DNA of 22,022 nt from a virus: positions 1-22,022 of the IMG/VR virus record IMGVR_UViG_3300001450_000370. The stretch is one strand, 5' to 3'. Shown piece after piece: positions 6,994 to 15,656 of the stretch. A program made the position numbers and the translations under genes. The notes under the pieces are model-generated. The model worked only from the letters and a program-made list of their open reading frames with translations, searched no databases and was not told where the DNA came from. Position 1 is the stretch's first letter. Each line of letters starts with the position of its first letter.

Positions 6994-8148
6994 TTACATC
7001 CACTTTACACCCTTTAAATCATATACTGCATTTTTAAGCCATTTCTCCTCTTGAGAGTCTTTTATGTATAATACATATACTTTACCTATTTTACCTTCTT
7101 CATATCTAATTAATCTACCAACTCTTTGTATCATAGACAATGATTTAGATGTCAACCCACATATTATCCCTAGATTAGCGTTAGGTATGTCAAATCCTTG
7201 ATTCAAAGCTTTAGTGGAACATAATACATTCACTTCACCCTCTCTAAAGCGTCTTAGAGCCTCTTTCTTCTTCTTTCCTGTAATCTTACTATGATACACT
7301 TCAGCTAGAGGTGAAACGCTCTCAGCCAGCATATCTGTAAATTCATTTAGACCTCCAAAGGTTATAATTTTCTTATCTAAGTTAGAATATACTATCTCTT
7401 TAAACTTAGCTATTTTATTATGAGCTCTATCTACAATACTCTTACGTTCTCGTATAGTTTTATAGAATCCAGCAGCATGTGCTTTCATCTCATAACTAAC
7501 ACTTGAACTGCTTAAAGCTATCTTAGCAAACTGGAAAGCGTCAGGATCTAGGGCCATTTTATGCTCTACAAATTTATTATTAACCTTTTTATACTCTACT
7601 CTTTCCTCTTCTGTAAGCTCTAAAGGTATACAGCAGATCTCATAAGGGGCTACTAATTCCATAGCTACACATTCATCTAATGTTAATGTATAGATTGTAG
7701 GTGCTAATGAATGTAGATGTACTTTATACATTGGTTCTTCAGGTGGTGTAGCAGTTAAACATAATATCTTATCATAAGTGTTATTATTAAAGAATTGTCT
7801 GTATTTATTAGACAACCCTAAGTGAATCTCATCACATACTACTAAATCATAATGCTCATCTTTAAACTTATATGCTGATTGATAGCATACTACATCGACC
7901 TTGTCCAAAATATCTTCGGACTCCCATTTTTTGAATTCTTCTTTGAATTGATCTTTAAGTTGCGTCGTTGGCACCAATACGAGAGCCCTTTTACCCCCAA
8001 GAGTGTTAAGCACGTAATTAATAGCCATAACCCCACAACGAGACTTACCAAAACCGGTCCCAGCAATGATGCTACCACAGCAATCATTACTATACCAATT
8101 ATTAAGTGCAATTCTCTGTTCTTTGTCTTTAGTTTCATATAATTTCAT
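6994..8148 (-). CDS. Superfamily 2 DNA/RNA helicase
   Basis: All main SF2 motifs are present in 384 residues: motif I GTGFGKS at 30-36, motif II DEIH at 106-109, motif III TATP at 132-135, a motif V region LNQGFDIP at 315-322, and motif VI QRVGRLIR at 341-348. The DExH box and compact size resemble UvsW / XPB-like phage helicases, which remodel branched DNA or R-loops. Bacterial SNF2-type proteins are larger. ATP-dependent branch migration or replication-restart functions are likely but not proven. It begins 2 nt after the HTH gene, and its stop is followed by an 88-nt gap with the candidate promoter. Confidence 0.9.
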   Translation of the reverse strand: MKLYETKDKEQRIALNNWYSNDCCGSIIAGTGFGKSRCGVMAINYVLNTLGGKRALVLVPTTQLKDQFKEEFKKWESEDILDKVDVVCYQSAYKFKDEHYDLVVCDEIHLGLSNKYRQFFNNNTYDKILCLTATPPEEPMYKVHLHSLAPTIYTLTLDECVAMELVAPYEICCIPLELTEEERVEYKKVNNKFVEHKMALDPDAFQFAKIALSSSSVSYEMKAHAAGFYKTIRERKSIVDRAHNKIAKFKEIVYSNLDKKIITFGGLNEFTDMLAESVSPLAEVYHSKITGKKKKEALRRFREGEVNVLCSTKALNQGFDIPNANLGIICGLTSKSLSMIQRVGRLIRYEEGKIGKVYVLYIKDSQEEKWLKNAVYDLKGVKWM

Positions 8149-8653: not shown

Positions 8654-8737
8654 AAATAAAGGGGAGGAATTGTAAGTATTTACAAGGTATAACTGCTGAA
8701 TTATTAATTTGAATTACTAACCTCCCCCTTATTTATT
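8654..8737 (-). terminator. Long-stem structured element after the DNA polymerase gene
   Basis: The arms AAATAAAGGGGAGG (8654-8667) and CCTCCCCCTTATTT (8721-8734) pair at 13 of 14 positions, enclosing 53 nt. Inside is a second perfect hairpin, TTGTAA-gtat-TTACAA (8670-8685). On the minus strand the outer stem overlaps the polymerase stop and is followed by TTTATTTTAATT. It may be a terminator, a 3'-end protector or a regulatory RNA. The interior is larger than in a usual terminator. Confidence 0.55.
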
Positions 8738-10619
8738 TTTCCCAACAACTACTAACTGTTACTTCAGCTTTTAACAAACCATTTGTAACTACTTCGTTAG
8801 CAGCTTCTTCCATTAATGCTTTGATAGCTTTTTCCCAGTGTGGGATATACTCATCTTTACATATAGTGTCTATTTGATCATGCACTGTCATTACTATCTT
8901 AACAGGTGCATCATCATTTGTACCAATATAATTACGTATAAGTATTAAAGCTTTCTTAGTCATGTCAGCACTAGCTCCCTGTATAGGTGTATTTTTACTA
9001 GCTCTCTCAATAGACGATAATTCTTGACTATTTTCTCTCGAGTTATACATCTTAGGAAACCAGTTAACAAACCATCTTCTTCTATTATAAGGAGGAAATG
9101 TCTTGATATAACCAAACTGTTTACCAAAATTAGCTAGTTTATCTAAGAATCCTTTGATAGACGGAAATGCTGTGAAGTAATCTTTAATTAAGTCTTCTGC
9201 AGCTTTCTTATCTATCTGTAAAGTTTCTGACAGTTTATTAGCACCCATGCCATAAGCCAAACCAAAGTTAATAGTCTTAACATTAGTTCTAAGTTTCTTA
9301 TGTGCTTTACAATTACATTTAGACTTGTCTTTCATATAAGAGCAATCATCCTCTGCTACATCAGTCCATTTCTCTTTATATACTAACTCAGCACATGTAC
9401 TATGTAAATCTTGGCCTTGAATCAATGCTTCAATCCAAACAGGATCTTTACTACCGTATGCTATTACATTTAACTCTTGACTAGAATAATCTGCTGATAC
9501 AAAACTCCAACCTTCAGGCGCAATAAAACAGTTACGAAATGCGTTATCTGCTGGTATCTGTTGCATATTAGGACGTGAGCTACTAACTCTACCGGTATCT
9601 AATATTTGATTAAAGCTTGTATGTATCTTACCATCAGACTTTAAATTAGTCATAAACTTTTCTCCATAAGAAGAATAGATTTTCATCTGTTCTTTATATT
9701 TAATGTAAGTAGCTACTATATCAAATTGAAAAGCATACCTAAGCATATCTTTCCCATTTACGTTATCAAGTTTAGGTATAATCCCTCTAAGAACTTCTAA
9801 AACTTGTTTTGGTGATGTCCATTTGACATTTACCTTCCGTAAAGTGGATACATCAGAGAATAAATCTCCTTGTATATGCTTAGGTATGAACTGTTTCAAT
9901 TCATCCATATTCAATATATGTTCATCTAATTCTTCTTGGTACTCATCTGCTTTGTTGATAGCATTGTTTGCTAATTTTAACCATTCTTCTGAGTCTAAAT
10001 CTAATCCGTTGTATTCTATATCTGCAAATGCTAATACAACTTCATTCTCTAGATCTATAGTATTTTGTAATTTATATATCTTTGTTTTTATATCCTGTTT
10101 ATCTTTTAAATTAATTAAATGCTCAACATCTTTAGCTGCGTATATTAATTGTGGATTGGTAAAGTCTCCTTTATGATCAACAAAACTAGACTGTTGAGTC
10201 TTATCCATTGTAATCTTAAGGTTTCTTTCTAATGTATTTGATAATGATACTGATAATCCTTTACCACAAGTTAATATTTTCTCTGCTAACATAGTGTCAT
10301 AAACATTCTCACATACTATATTAAAACTAGAACGTATAAAATTCACATCAAACTTAGCGTTATGAAATATTTTAGTGATAGTTTTACTCTCTAGTATTTC
10401 TTTTAACTCTTGTATATCGTGTCCTCTAGTTTCTATTAAGAACTGTTTTTCTTCATCTCCTATTTGAAATAGTATAACTTTATCTGTTGTGTAGTCAAGA
10501 CCTGTAGTTTCAGTGTCAATTGATAATATTACTTTTTCTTTACAATAAGAAACAACTTCTTCCATTGTAACATGGTCAAAGTTATCTCTTTGTAAAGAAT
10601 CATTAACTAAATGTATCAT
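8733..10619 (-). CDS. polA-like: Family A DNA polymerase with 3'-5' exonuclease
   Basis: This 628-residue replicative polymerase has an N-terminal proofreading domain with all three Exo motifs: D35/E37 (DTETTG), N87-D91 (HNAKFD) and Y160-D164 (YAAKD). The polymerase domain has RVSSSRPNMQQIP at 344-356, motif A DYSSQEL from D377, motif B with K448 and F452 (KTINFGLAYG), and motif C VHDQ at 579-582. Motif C normally reads HDE, so Q582 is a deviation, and motif A is SQEL rather than QIEL. F452 aligns with E. coli Phe762, the wild-type class in viral PolA typing. Between motifs A and B, C426, C435, C437 and H440 form a compact possible zinc site. There is no 5' nuclease domain. The start overlaps the 72-aa gene upstream by ATGA. 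Confidence 0.95.
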   Translation of the reverse strand: MIHLVNDSLQRDNFDHVTMEEVVSYCKEKVILSIDTETTGLDYTTDKVILFQIGDEEKQFLIETRGHDIQELKEILESKTITKIFHNAKFDVNFIRSSFNIVCENVYDTMLAEKILTCGKGLSVSLSNTLERNLKITMDKTQQSSFVDHKGDFTNPQLIYAAKDVEHLINLKDKQDIKTKIYKLQNTIDLENEVVLAFADIEYNGLDLDSEEWLKLANNAINKADEYQEELDEHILNMDELKQFIPKHIQGDLFSDVSTLRKVNVKWTSPKQVLEVLRGIIPKLDNVNGKDMLRYAFQFDIVATYIKYKEQMKIYSSYGEKFMTNLKSDGKIHTSFNQILDTGRVSSSRPNMQQIPADNAFRNCFIAPEGWSFVSADYSSQELNVIAYGSKDPVWIEALIQGQDLHSTCAELVYKEKWTDVAEDDCSYMKDKSKCNCKAHKKLRTNVKTINFGLAYGMGANKLSETLQIDKKAAEDLIKDYFTAFPSIKGFLDKLANFGKQFGYIKTFPPYNRRRWFVNWFPKMYNSRENSQELSSIERASKNTPIQGASADMTKKALILIRNYIGTNDDAPVKIVMTVHDQIDTICKDEYIPHWEKAIKALMEEAANEVVTNGLLKAEVTVSSCWEK

Positions 10620-10929: not shown

Positions 10930-11526
10930 TTACAAACCATATTCATCAGTAACCATAGACTTGTCTTTTACAATATCTTTGGCTGTAATTACTCTACCTA
11001 TTGAATCATCTGCTTTTAATAACACATGGTCAACAACTTCATTAGTAATTATTACTAAAGTATTGCTAAAGATATAGTCTCCATTATGTTTAATGAATTC
11101 TCCTTCTTTACCTTTACGTTTAGCTCTAGTTTCGATGTTATCTGCTTGATATGCATCTGGTTCAGTAGTTTCAGAAACCATTACTCTGATTCTTTCTCCT
11201 TCTACTGTAGGATTTAACATGTTAAGTTCTAACATTTCACCTTTTTCTGTTAATTCCCATTCAGGGTTGTTATCAGAGAAATCCATTCCTAAATCTGCAG
11301 AAATATCTTCCATTGTTACATTTACCCAAGCACGCCTAGCTCTGTTACCAAATCTAGAATCGCTGCGATTGAATCTACCTACTGCTGTTACTGGTCCTTC
11401 TTGTACTGTTAATACTTCTGCAAACTCTAAAGATATTTTATCACCTTTAACTTTTCTAGCTGATAATAATAAAGTGTCTCCTAATTTTAAAGTGTTTAGA
11501 CTTCCACTATCGATTTGATTATCCAT
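10930..11526 (-). CDS. Unknown 198-residue protein of the replication block
   Basis: I do not recognise this family. The sequence alternates beta-like segments (TLLLSARKV, ISLEFAEVLTV, RIRVMVSE, NTLVIITNEVV) with charged loops, and has one basic patch (SRFGNRARRAW, around residues 57-67) and another at ETRAKRKGKEGE. This pattern would fit a beta-barrel or OB-type nucleic-acid-binding protein, but that is only an impression. No cysteines, membrane segments or nuclease motifs are seen. It is first in the line of the polymerase cluster, flanked by stem-loops on both sides (10855-10920 and 11552-11578), so its mRNA segment may be processed separately. Confidence 0.65.
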   Translation of the reverse strand: MDNQIDSGSLNTLKLGDTLLLSARKVKGDKISLEFAEVLTVQEGPVTAVGRFNRSDSRFGNRARRAWVNVTMEDISADLGMDFSDNNPEWELTEKGEMLELNMLNPTVEGERIRVMVSETTEPDAYQADNIETRAKRKGKEGEFIKHNGDYIFSNTLVIITNEVVDHVLLKADDSIGRVITAKDIVKDKSMVTDEYGL

Positions 11527-11738: not shown

Positions 11739-11951
11739 TTAATATTCGTTGATTAATAGTATGTTCCTATTTTTAATCTTCGATTGTAATTTACTGTTTA
11801 ATATAGCTAACACCATTTTTGTCATCTTAAAGATAGTTGATGTTTTTTCATGTTTATTTGATTCGTGCTCTATACAAGTGATTAATCTTGTTAGTCTTGA
11901 ACAACTCATTCTATTTGGGTTGAATTGTTTACCCCGTACTGTTATTTTCAT
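11739..11951 (-). CDS. Unknown basic 70-residue protein
   Basis: This is a basic, helix-prone protein with no recognised family. It contains RMSCSRLTRLITCIEHE (two cysteines) and a Lys-rich C-terminal half (KMTKMVLAILNSKLQSKIKNRN). Its leader (ATAAATAACATG) is the same as that of the 198-aa gene downstream, which supports a real start. The overall charge would suit nucleic-acid binding. It could still be a non-conserved ORF. Confidence 0.45.
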   Translation of the reverse strand: MKITVRGKQFNPNRMSCSRLTRLITCIEHESNKHEKTSTIFKMTKMVLAILNSKLQSKIKNRNILLINEY

Positions 11952-11982: not shown

Positions 11983-12192
11983 TTATTTCTTATAATATTC
12001 TATCCATAAAGAATCAGTTTTATGACTATATTCAATATATTCTTTATCTATTTCATATTGTATTGCATTTCTATGAGTTAATTGTTCATTAGTTAATTTA
12101 CTTATACCACAAGATGATGCAAGTAGTATTATTATTATTGATACAATAAGCATTACTGCAATACCTACTGAGTTACCTCTTTTATTTGTCAT
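11983..12192 (-). CDS. Small phage-encoded lipoprotein (69 aa)
   Basis: The N-terminus is a classic lipoprotein signal: basic MTNKRGN, a hydrophobic stretch (11-24), then LLASSC with the lipidated cysteine at 28. The mature ~42 residues are polar and charged, probably one helix (NEQLTHRNAIQYEIDKEY), ending in SLWIEYYKK. Phage lipoproteins made early often block adsorption or DNA entry of competing phages (T5 Llp, for example). That role is inference here from type and from location in an accessory cluster. It is preceded by one copy of the leader motif ATAAACATTAACTAAA. Confidence 0.65.
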   Translation of the reverse strand: MTNKRGNSVGIAVMLIVSIIIILLASSCGISKLTNEQLTHRNAIQYEIDKEYIEYSHKTDSLWIEYYKK

Positions 12193-12214
12193 TTTTAATA
12201 TATTTAGTTAATGT

Positions 12215-12322
12215 TTATTTGTATTCTTTACAATACCAGTCATATTTCTTATGATAGTATTCACTGTTGTTCATGACTCTCCAAAAGCCATAAAGGTTAA
12301 TCATTTTAATTAATTTAATCAT
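12215..12322 (-). CDS. 35-residue aromatic, basic microprotein
   Basis: The ORF starts at an ATG that overlaps the TGA of the 47-aa membrane gene (ATGA at 12319-12322) and ends at TAA 12215. It is rich in Tyr, Trp and Lys (SEYYHKKYDWYCKEYK at the end) with a hydrophobic MIKLIKMINLYGF start. No family is recognised. The stop-start overlap and the absence of any other gene in this space support translation, but at this length it is uncertain. Confidence 0.4.
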   Translation of the reverse strand: MIKLIKMINLYGFWRVMNNSEYYHKKYDWYCKEYK

Positions 12323-12462
12323 AATGCTTCTATTTTATCAGATACAAACTTTATTTCTAATAGTATAAATGGTACTAAAAATATAATTGTATTATCTTGC
12401 CAGCCAAAGTAAAAGCCAAATCCTTTAACTCTTTCTGTTTTTAATTTAATTGTTTTTGTCAT
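12319..12462 (-). CDS. 47-residue membrane protein
   Basis: The ORF from ATG 12462 follows the repeated 16-bp leader motif. The first 14 residues are basic (MTKTIKLKTERVKG), then come aromatic residues (FGFYFGW) and a hydrophobic segment at about 25-38 (NTIIFLVPFILLEI). It is probably a single-span inner-membrane protein with its N-terminus in the cytoplasm. Function is unknown; it is one of several tiny membrane-targeted products in this stretch. Confidence 0.5.
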   Translation of the reverse strand: MTKTIKLKTERVKGFGFYFGWQDNTIIFLVPFILLEIKFVSDKIEAL

Positions 12463-12499
12463 GTCTTTATTTATTTAGTTAATGTTTATGTTTAGTTTG

Positions 12500-12567
12500 A
12501 AAAAAAGGAAGAGAGAACACTTTGGTATTTACATAGCTTTTGCTAAAACCGTGGCTTTTCTTCTCTC
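12500..12567 (-). terminator. Structured intergenic hairpin with U-run
   Basis: The outer stem GAGAGAA (12511-12517) / TTCTCTC (12561-12567) is perfect. Inside it CAC pairs with GTG, GGT with ACC and TTTA with TAAA. On the minus strand it lies 10 nt after the stop of the small lipoprotein gene, and the closing arm is followed by TTCC and seven T. It is probably a terminator or attenuator ahead of the 47-aa gene. At 57 nt it is too short for a tRNA despite the 7-bp stem. Confidence 0.45.
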
Positions 12568-12577
12568 GACCTATTTT

Positions 12578-12721
12578 TTATTGTCCTCCAGTCCAACCAC
12601 CGCTACAAGTTCTACTCATAGGTTTTCCTGTACCAACGTTATAACATTGGCTAGACATACCACAAGATGTAATAAATAGAGCTACAACTGCGATAATTAA
12701 TATGTTTTTTACTGTTTTCAT
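12578..12721 (-). CDS. 47-residue cysteine-containing lipoprotein
   Basis: The ORF starts at ATG 12721 and ends at TAA 12578. Residues 1-20 are a textbook lipoprotein signal: basic MKTVKN, a hydrophobic core (ILIIAVVALF), then ITSC with C20 lipidated and Gly at +2. The mature peptide is only 28 residues, Gly/Ser-rich, with two further cysteines (C26, C39) that could form a disulfide. No acidic export signal follows the cysteine, so inner-leaflet retention is possible. It uses the repeated 16-bp leader motif. Like the 69-aa lipoprotein nearby, a role in superinfection exclusion or envelope modification is plausible but unproven. Confidence 0.65.
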   Translation of the reverse strand: MKTVKNILIIAVVALFITSCGMSSQCYNVGTGKPMSRTCSGGWTGGQ

Positions 12722-12733
12722 GATTAATTGATT

Positions 12734-13054
12734 TTAGTTAATGTTTATTGGTTTATCAATAGATTTATATTTTAATTTTATCTCTAAACTTCTATTAAGA
12801 AATATAATACCTAATTTATTGTTTTTTATAGATATTAAAATTGTTGGTATAAGAGCTATAATTTCTTCTTTATCTATTTTAAATTTAAAGATAACATTTA
12901 TAAAATGTAATGCCATTATATTTACTGCTCCTAATATAAATGCAGATGTTAAATTGAATGTGTATTTATATTCCATAAAAAAGAATATAAAATTTAATAG
13001 AATAGTACTAGTTATAAGCATTATTCCTGCTATTGTAATTGATTTGTTGTTCAT
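12734..13054 (-). CDS. 106-residue polytopic membrane protein
   Basis: Three hydrophobic segments are visible: about 7-27 (TIAGIMLITSTILLNFIFFF), 36-56 (TSAFILGAVNIMALHFINVI) and 65-76 (IIALIPTILISI), with a basic C-terminal tail (NRSLEIKLKYKSIDK). Charges between segments favour a cytoplasmic C-terminus. No family is recognised; small holin-like or exclusion proteins can look like this, but there is no lysin in the window to support a holin call. The last codons run into the leader motif of the next gene. Confidence 0.55.
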   Translation of the reverse strand: MNNKSITIAGIMLITSTILLNFIFFFMEYKYTFNLTSAFILGAVNIMALHFINVIFKFKIDKEEIIALIPTILISIKNNKLGIIFLNRSLEIKLKYKSIDKPININ

Positions 13055-13461: not shown

Positions 13462-13520
13462 TGTTGGATAGACCGTTAAATGGCCGTATGACACCAGGTG
13501 CTTGCACCCATTAACCAACA
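13462..13520 (-). promoter_or_regulatory. Nested-hairpin leader element
   Basis: The stem TGTTGG (13462-13467) / CCAACA (13515-13520) encloses TTAAaTG / CATTAA and a GGTGC / GCACC arm with a tight loop. The stretch is more GC-rich than its surroundings and lies 37 nt upstream of the 88-aa gene on the minus strand, so it may be a 5' leader RNA. It lacks tRNA arms. Confidence 0.35.
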
Positions 13521-13530
13521 TTCCCCACAC

Positions 13531-13547
13531 ATAGTAAGGGTCTTTGT
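13531..13547. repeat. Copy 1 of a 17-bp repeat (ATAGTAAGGGTCTTTGT)
   Basis: This matches 13892-13908 at 16 of 17 bases. The two copies flank the 63-aa gene at 13659-13850. They may be promoter or operator sites for a phage or host regulator. Confidence 0.5.
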
Positions 13548-13592
13548 TAGTGTTATTGTTATTGTCTGTGTTTGTGTCTGTGTTTGTGTTAT
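13541..13592. repeat. GT-rich low-complexity tract
   Basis: The plus strand is an irregular TGTGTTTGTGTC-type repeat (CA-rich on the minus strand) with no credible ORF. It is a non-coding spacer between the terminator at 13614-13648 and the nested-hairpin element. Such an unpaired CA-rich segment could be a leader or protein-binding stretch. Confidence 0.5.
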
Positions 13593-13613
13593 CCGTATAG
13601 TATATATAAGAAT

Positions 13614-14339: not shown

Positions 14340-14609
14340 ATGAAATTTACTCCAAACGGATCGTGGGTTGTCCTTCCAGACCCAACAATTACAGAAACAG
14401 AATCAGGTATTATTTTAGATGAAGCAACTTCTATTCAGAATGCTAAACGTTCTAATATATTAGAGGTATTAGCTACTGGTCCTATGTGTACATTTGCTAA
14501 AGTAGGGGATACAGTTATGATAGACCCTAGAACTGAAGCGGTTAAATGTAGATTAGATGATAAAGATCTACTATTAGTTGGTGAGCATCAACTATTAGGT
14601 AAAATGTAA
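14340..14609 (+). CDS. groES-like: GroES-like co-chaperonin
   Basis: The 89-residue protein matches the GroES fold in order: SWVVLPDPTITETESGIILDE contains the first strands and mobile loop (20-30), followed by EVLATGP, then KVGDTVMIDPR, and the final LLLVGEHQLLGKM. These correspond to the family phrases VxxVGxG, VxxGDxVxF and the closing DIxAVV strand. Phage GroES analogues (T4 gp31) cap host GroEL to fold capsid protein. Its place at the head of the packaging/head block agrees with that. At 89 residues it is slightly shorter than bacterial GroES (~97). Its stop overlaps the next ATG as TAATG. No GroEL is encoded here. Confidence 0.8.
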   Translation: MKFTPNGSWVVLPDPTITETESGIILDEATSIQNAKRSNILEVLATGPMCTFAKVGDTVMIDPRTEAVKCRLDDKDLLLVGEHQLLGKM

Positions 14610-15191: not shown

Positions 15192-15307
15192 GAGGATCAG
15201 AGGATTTAATTTTCACATCGTTTACGGTGGGAAACTACGAAATATTTATATTTCAAAACCCAGAAGGAGAATTAATAACTGTAAAAACATATAAATATGG
15301 AGAATGA
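15188..15307 (+). CDS. 39-residue bridging ORF
   Basis: The ORF starts with an ATGA overlap on the winged-helix gene's stop and ends at TGA 15307, 11 nt inside the zinc-protein gene. The sequence is beta-hairpin-like (DLIFTSFTVGNYEIFIFQNP, then ELITVKTYKYG). It fills the only gap between the two genes, and stop-start overlaps at both ends support translation. No family is recognised. Confidence 0.5.
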   Translation: MRGSEDLIFTSFTVGNYEIFIFQNPEGELITVKTYKYGE

Positions 15308-15656
15308 AGATAAAAATAAAGATAAGCATGAAAAGTTATATCATAAGGAACCTAGTTTCTTTCAAATGGCTAAGAACTTTGCAGCCTCTGCGAGTAAACA
15401 TATAGCTAATGGTATGAAACTAGTAACTCAAGAAGTATATATGGATAGATTAGATGAATGTAATAAATGCCCGCACTTATTAGAAAAGAAAAAGAGGTGT
15501 GGTTTGTGTGGGTGTGGTTTAGAGCATAAAGCTAAATGGGAAACTTCAGAATGTCCTGATATACCTTCTAGGTGGAATATTAAGAATGAGTCTGATACAG
15601 ATGTTAACTACCCAAGAACTGGTGGATTATCCCCAGATACAGGACCAAGAAATTAA
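15297..15656 (+). CDS. Zinc-binding protein with Cys cluster
   Basis: The 119-residue protein has a charged N-terminus (ENEDKNKDKHEK), an amphipathic helix (FFQMAKNFAASASKHIANGM) and then a compact metal-binding cluster: C55, C58, C68, C71, C73 and C86 in CNKCP, RCGLCGCGL and SECP. The tail is Gly/Pro-rich. The pattern fits a small zinc-ribbon domain fused to a helix. Its TAA overlaps the IHF-like ATG (TAATG), so the two are probably made together; a DNA-condensing or packaging role is possible. I cannot name the family with certainty. Confidence 0.6.
   Translation: MENEDKNKDKHEKLYHKEPSFFQMAKNFAASASKHIANGMKLVTQEVYMDRLDECNKCPHLLEKKKRCGLCGCGLEHKAKWETSECPDIPSRWNIKNESDTDVNYPRTGGLSPDTGPRN

Follow-up and report, generated by a model that had tools for sequence, protein, structure and literature searches.

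Five small genes, among them two for predicted lipoproteins, lie together on one strand of a 22,022-base virus record from IMG/VR (IMGVR_UViG_3300001450_000370, analysed over its full length and called the window hereafter). A role in the envelope is what one would naturally read into the lipoproteins of this island. The locus raises two questions: whether its genes belong together, and what the most widespread of them might do in the infected cell.

The window and its replication module

The large terminase subunit (TerL) encoded in the window is homologous over its full length to those of human-gut crAss-like phages (NC_055891 and others; 40-42% identity, >95% of the protein covered), and we accordingly assign the window to a crAss-like phage (order Crassvirales), of which it is a 22-kb fragment. 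This bears out a crAss-like link already made in a first-pass annotation, and the hosts are presumed to be Bacteroidota. The minus strand carries replication genes, including a DNA polymerase, and the first plus-strand gene is Cpn10-like by a weak Pfam match, with terminase and portal-like genes also on that strand. One side of the island faces the divergent region (~13.85-14.34 kb), the other a conserved 198-aa gene preceding the polymerase (Table 1). Gene blocks of opposite direction do lie on either side of this region, which the first-pass annotation called a divergent promoter region, but no promoter was demonstrated in it (33 sigma-70-like sites vs. 28.5 in shuffles). An Rfam search of the window found no RNA, and a DNA search of the island region against named phages found no match.

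Several other features of the window were recorded along the way. A low-complexity GT-rich stretch of the divergent region (13510-13610) adjoins a 63-aa gene. The Cpn10-like gene (14340-14609, plus strand), for which 80 relatives were found, heads the plus strand in this clade. Two unrelated phages carrying lipo69 homologues have full Cpn60 genes (L120:1930-3498 and L147:1604-3184). The C-terminal tail of a 119-aa protein (15297-15656, plus strand), around GGLSPDTGPRN, recurs elsewhere in L007:10848-10883 and L011:8778-8813, and we report it as a side observation, a candidate short mobile C-terminal tag. Finally, an 82-aa ORF with a signal-like N-terminus (7890-8138, minus strand), in another frame within the helicase gene (6994-8148), is probably spurious.

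Five small genes in a variable slot

All five minus-strand ORFs previously proposed for 11983-13054 are present, and the two called as lipoproteins (69 and 47 aa, here lipo69 and lipo47) both have a lipobox, far above chance expectation. When ORFs of at least 35 aa are screened with a simple rule for lipobox and signal, the island holds two such proteins vs. a mean of 0.0065 in dinucleotide shuffles (0 of 2000 reached two), and the whole window three vs. 0.085. The start of aro35 falls inside the stop of tm47 (ATGA overlap), as in coupled phage genes. Three of the genes are preceded by exact copies of a 14-mer, AAACATTAACTAAA, each 10-13 nt ahead of the ATG (0 copies in 100 shuffles), which is possibly a translation leader or a recombination boundary of gene cassettes. 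Near copies occur before p70 and before small genes of relatives, the repeat being noted near small genes in L004, L008 and L010.

Table 1. Features of the island and of the adjoining replication genes (positions in the window).
Feature	Position	Strand	Evidence or remark
DNA polymerase (A family), replication module	8733..10619	-	PHROG 17, E 1.6e-108
Conserved 198-aa protein, encoded between polymerase and island	10930..11526	-	Marker for placing the island in relatives
p70, 70-aa cytosolic-type protein, directly downstream of lipo69	11739..11951	-	Near relatives 96-74% identity
lipo69, 69-aa lipoprotein, ...LLASSC/GISK	11983..12192	-	ORF list; type II signal peptide with Cys28 at codon 12109-12111, then a ~6-residue linker and the predicted helix
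lipo69 conserved C-terminal helix (predicted), residues 35-68, EIDKEYIEYSHKTDSLWIEYYK	11989..12090	-	Alignment A4; AlphaFold
Leader repeat AAACATTAACTAAA before lipo69	12203..12216	-	Exact copy
aro35, 35-aa Tyr/Trp-rich aromatic peptide	12215..12322	-	ORF list
tm47, 47-aa protein, one hydrophobic segment	12319..12462	-	ORF list
Leader repeat AAACATTAACTAAA before tm47	12474..12487	-	Exact copy
lipo47, 47-aa lipoprotein, ...FITSC/GMSS	12578..12721	-	Signal peptide, Cys20 codon 12662-12664
Leader repeat AAACATTAACTAAA before lipo47	12733..12746	-	Exact copy
tm106, 106-aa membrane protein, two confident spans and hydrophobic C-terminal region	12734..13054	-	L004 relative

The content of the island changes completely from relative to relative, and it is therefore best regarded as an accessory slot of variable content. 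The idea of one conserved cluster is not supported, only the 69-aa lipoprotein recurring widely. For tm106, two N-terminal hydropathy spans exceed the threshold and the third span that had been proposed is not established: the AlphaFold model (two-sequence input, mean pLDDT 51.5) is too weak on this point and was set aside for its low confidence. This protein is conserved in relatives, if narrowly, with one clear counterpart at L004:355-678 (68% identity, dN 0.21 / dS 0.37; L028 is the same contig), and a scan of viral contigs with tm106 gave no confirmed relative. A 103-aa two-span family (L092, L096 and L102) looked similar by eye but was rejected on profile comparison (E 0.42), and a pairwise match of tm47 to the same family (E 0.0098) covers only 18 columns and was not relied on.

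No confirmed relatives were found for tm47, aro35 or lipo47; for tm47 there was only a weak similarity to a 40-aa ORF in L067 (E 0.45). The tm47 segment NTIIFLVPFILLEIKF, earlier called a single span, could alternatively be a beta hairpin. The mature part of lipo47 is 28 residues long and has two further Cys besides that of the lipobox. In relatives, two-span proteins of ~80 aa whose tail is basic and contains Tyr/Trp recur beside or near the lipoproteins (L014:5371-5613, L019:5219-5464, L020:4418-4660, L025:5336-5587, L023:5084-5320, L123:7302-7538, as well as in L104 and L106), and it is possible that these are lipoprotein partners or separate exclusion proteins.

A family of tiny predicted lipoproteins

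Judged from its sequence, lipo69 is the founder here of a previously uncatalogued family of tiny lipoproteins. Gathering sequences from IMG/VR via the polymerase, the Cpn10-like gene and growing lipoprotein alignments yielded 51 distinct members in viral contigs, a 52nd match (L045) being left out because only its anchor is in common. The first-pass annotation had recognised no family, which stands for the curated libraries (lipo69 has none in Pfam, PHROGs or NCBIfam, the best matches being sub-threshold and consistent with signal-peptide similarity) but not for the 69-aa protein itself, which is conserved across these 51 relatives. Searches of PDB sequences returned no related chain to E 10, and searches of named-phage proteins with lipo69 and tm106 as queries returned no match.

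The Ser-Cys lipobox is kept in all 49 full-length members (the other two are cut by contig ends), and what marks the family is its C-terminal segment, with consensus IDYELDKLYxEYxYKxDSLxIEYYK (core YELDKLYxEYxYKxDSLxIEYYK). lipo69 has both features, as seen in alignment A4 and by profile search, and within this 23-member alignment Ser27, Cys28, Tyr55, Asp60 and Ser61 are invariant along with the start Met. AlphaFold, supplied with the 23-member alignment, predicts a signal helix (residues 5-27), a short linker and one helix of ~34 residues (35-68), with pLDDT about 95 over residues 41-60. A strict heptad coiled coil was rejected for this helix, its hydrophobic periodicity peaking near 3.7-3.8 and not 3.5; that it is right-handed or hendecad-like is only a suggestion, the segment being only 24 columns long. 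The gene is under purifying selection, pairwise dN/dS being about 0.3-0.4 in three of the four pairs tested (the fourth, L109/L142, is very close and has too few changes for an estimate).

Outside IMG/VR, lipo69 matched a single contig among 84,980 species genomes, and this phage contig is in IMG/VR too: a Nanoarchaeota MAG contains the same 18.5-kb phage contig as L109, most likely mis-binned. A match of the L014 homologue to Flavobacterium phage FpV4 (E 0.5) falls in a 1.2-kb gene among structural genes and was dismissed as chance.

Genomic setting and spread of lipo69

Where any window-type core gene is detectable, the lipo69 homologue shares its strand with the nearest replication-module gene (33 of 33 members, 22-3316 nt away). 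The backbones concerned are diverse: TerL identity to the window is 78-82% in G020, G021 and the like, 37% in G016, 27-29% in the 113-120-kb contigs G014 and G017-G019, and 25-26%, with marginal E-values, in G012, G013 and G015. In the unrelated phages examined, lipo69 members share a strand with Sak/exonuclease genes or DNA ligase, and the Cpn60 gene of L120 and L147 is on the strand opposite the lipo69 member.

The closest mature parts to that of the window are found in distant phages (67% in L111, which shares no core gene, and 62% in L109, polymerase 41%) while near relatives are more diverged (only 40% in L041 despite a polymerase identity of 74%), which suggests that lipo69 has been exchanged horizontally. 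A search of 16 contigs matched the five known carriers and none of the other 11, five of which are >80 kb. Absent from many close relatives, lipo69 is therefore an accessory, dispensable gene and probably a mobile one.

Exchange of mature domains at the lipobox

A stretch of 138 nt, comprising 60 nt upstream and the signal peptide, is 95% identical between L014 and L020, and right after the lipobox Cys the two are unrelated, with mature parts of 20 and 141 residues, respectively. The L014 mature part is also found in L023 behind a different signal peptide. Likewise, L045 combines a window-type anchor (MTNKQANSIG...) with a different mature domain, and this domain is found in L033 on another anchor. 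In the swapped lipoproteins of L020, L025 and L023 (138-167 aa), the large mature parts start with motifs resembling the export signal of Bacteroidota surface lipoproteins (CDKRED or CSKEDE), unlike the lipo69 family. Such lipobox-precise swaps would explain a quick diversification of these lipoproteins. One could go further and imagine a modular exclusion locus common to Bacteroidota phages, in which a conserved and leader-tagged lipoprotein anchor would be re-armed by mature-domain exchange at the lipobox (L014/L020, L014/L023, window-type/L045 and L045/L033), thereby evolving envelope effectors against rival phages, although we regard this generalization as unlikely.

Candidate roles of lipo69

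Surface lipoproteins of Bacteroidota (LES) follow an export rule, K-(D/E)2 just after the Cys, and need an acidic signal at +2 to +6 (PMC5080379). We looked for K-(D/E)2 or an S-D-rich motif at +2 to +6, and the LES motif was lacking: 45 of the 50 scored family sequences have no acidic residue at these positions and the remaining five have one. Because this surface-export signal is absent, lipo69 would be lipidated and periplasm-facing. As for timing, the replication genes of crAss001 belong to the middle class and remain expressed until the end, and its lysis genes are late (PMC8375218); by analogy with these middle replication genes, lipo69 would be expressed before lysis.

Two characterized phage proteins suggest what such a protein could do: T5 Llp is a periplasmic lipoprotein that jams FhuA from below (PMC9586334), and Rtp45 (~6 kDa), also a periplasmic lipoprotein, jams LptDE likewise (PMC12685063). 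The best explanation, which we put forward tentatively and by analogy, is that lipo69 acts in superinfection exclusion through a receptor jamming of the Llp/Rtp45 kind. The accessory slot within the replication (middle-gene) strand would then hold small envelope-acting genes, among which lipo69 would be expressed between entry and lysis and would provide a small lipoprotein of the periplasm that presents a single ~34-residue amphipathic, Tyr-rich helix. This helix could bind a host outer-membrane or envelope protein and lock a receptor from below, leaving further phages unable to bind. In the same slot, lipo47 might be an alternative effector, as might the lipoprotein domains swapped among relatives. 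Against exclusion, lipo69 is not related in sequence to Llp, Cor or Rtp45, does not have the disulphide of Llp and Cor and, unlike llp, has no adjoining receptor-binding gene.

The same anatomy and timing are equally compatible with lipo69 engaging another machine of the periplasm or outer membrane (lipoprotein sorting, TonB transport or stress sensing) and so keeping the cell intact or fed. The accessory distribution agrees with this too, and the fact that unrelated backbones carry the family points to a benefit that depends on the host group and not on one receptor. However, characterized small phage outer-membrane lipoproteins are mostly known to act in exclusion, and we consider such another target rather unlikely.

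A lysis role is more doubtful still. lipo69 could be an o-spanin whose partner at lysis would be an inner-membrane coiled-coil protein from another locus: it is a short lipoprotein with a helix and, also in favour of an outer-membrane lysis role, its homologue is the only clear small lipoprotein that the lipobox scan found in three ~86-kb relatives (G020, G021 and G016). In two of these, the structural half encodes a 72-74-aa protein with an N-terminal span and a coiled-coil-like tail (G020:26228-26446 and G021:43291-43515). Yet the gene keeps its replication-module position and strand in 33 of 33 cases (within 3.4 kb) with no lysis-cassette location, the crAss001 lysis genes being late (PMC8375218), and it is missing from five >80-kb relatives, which would be odd for an essential lysis part. 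Moreover, no protein with a transmembrane span plus coiled coil adjoins lipo69, which is not proline-rich and resembles Rz PHROGs at the signal-peptide level only. A search for endolysins (PF01510, PF18013 and PF01832) in 13 relatives found nothing, so the lysis cassette was not placed. Given position and patchy presence, a spanin role is disfavoured relative to exclusion.

Similarly improbable, in our estimation, is that the island is no functional unit at all and gathers unrelated small accessory genes at a tolerant site, with their own partly dispensable roles and lipo69 alone under lasting selection. A composition that differs in nearly every relative, and the lack of confirmed relatives for tm47, aro35 and lipo47, would fit, but the class of content is recurrent here (lipoproteins and two-span proteins), three genes have the 14-nt leader in common, and lipoboxes are enriched; this alternative is in any case compatible with exclusion as the role of lipo69 itself. 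That lipo69 is instead a virion or assembly accessory is highly improbable, nothing direct favouring it beyond the many uncharacterized small genes of crAss-like phages, and the lipobox kept in 49 of 49 members and the location with replication rather than structural genes speaking against it.

Comparison with known phage systems

T5 Llp and Cor (of T1 and phi80) are superinfection-exclusion lipoproteins, and no sequence relation of either to lipo69 was detected: only 2 of 23 members gave a match to the PHROG profile for Cor (phrog_1119), with a best E of 0.046, consistent with signal-peptide similarity. Llp and Cor have an intramolecular disulphide, whereas mature lipo69 and most members have the lipidated Cys only; lipo69 also differs in being a predicted single helix and in its presumed Bacteroidota hosts, and llp is beside a receptor-binding protein gene whereas lipo69 is among replication genes. 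As a tiny phage lipoprotein predicted to face the periplasm, lipo69 is comparable to Rtp45, a periplasmic lipoprotein of about 6 kDa that clamps an outer-membrane receptor complex; a beta strand of Rtp45 pairs with LptD, whereas lipo69 is predicted to be all-helical, and no homology was found. Ltp of Streptococcus phage TP-J34 is likewise a phage lipoprotein with a lipid anchor and an effector part, but a Gram-positive surface lipoprotein from a temperate phage, with another architecture. Rz1-type outer-membrane spanins are short phage lipoproteins too, from which lipo69 differs by lacking a lysis-cassette position, an adjoining inner-membrane coiled-coil partner and proline richness.

Among membrane proteins, T4 Imm is a two-span inner-membrane exclusion protein. 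The ~80-aa two-span proteins beside lipoproteins in L014, L019, L020, L025 and L023 resemble it in size and topology only, and in the window tm106 occupies the corresponding position.

Exclusion lipoproteins have so far been worked out in coliphages, and in the literature searched we found no paper on one in Flavobacterium or crAss-like phages. With a mature part of ~40 residues, lipo69 is an easily cloned candidate for envelope control by abundant Bacteroidota phages. On the features tested, it is neither a member of the Llp and Cor families nor demonstrably a spanin, and represents a new family within a known kind, the phage-encoded mini-lipoproteins; it may work in an Llp-like manner.
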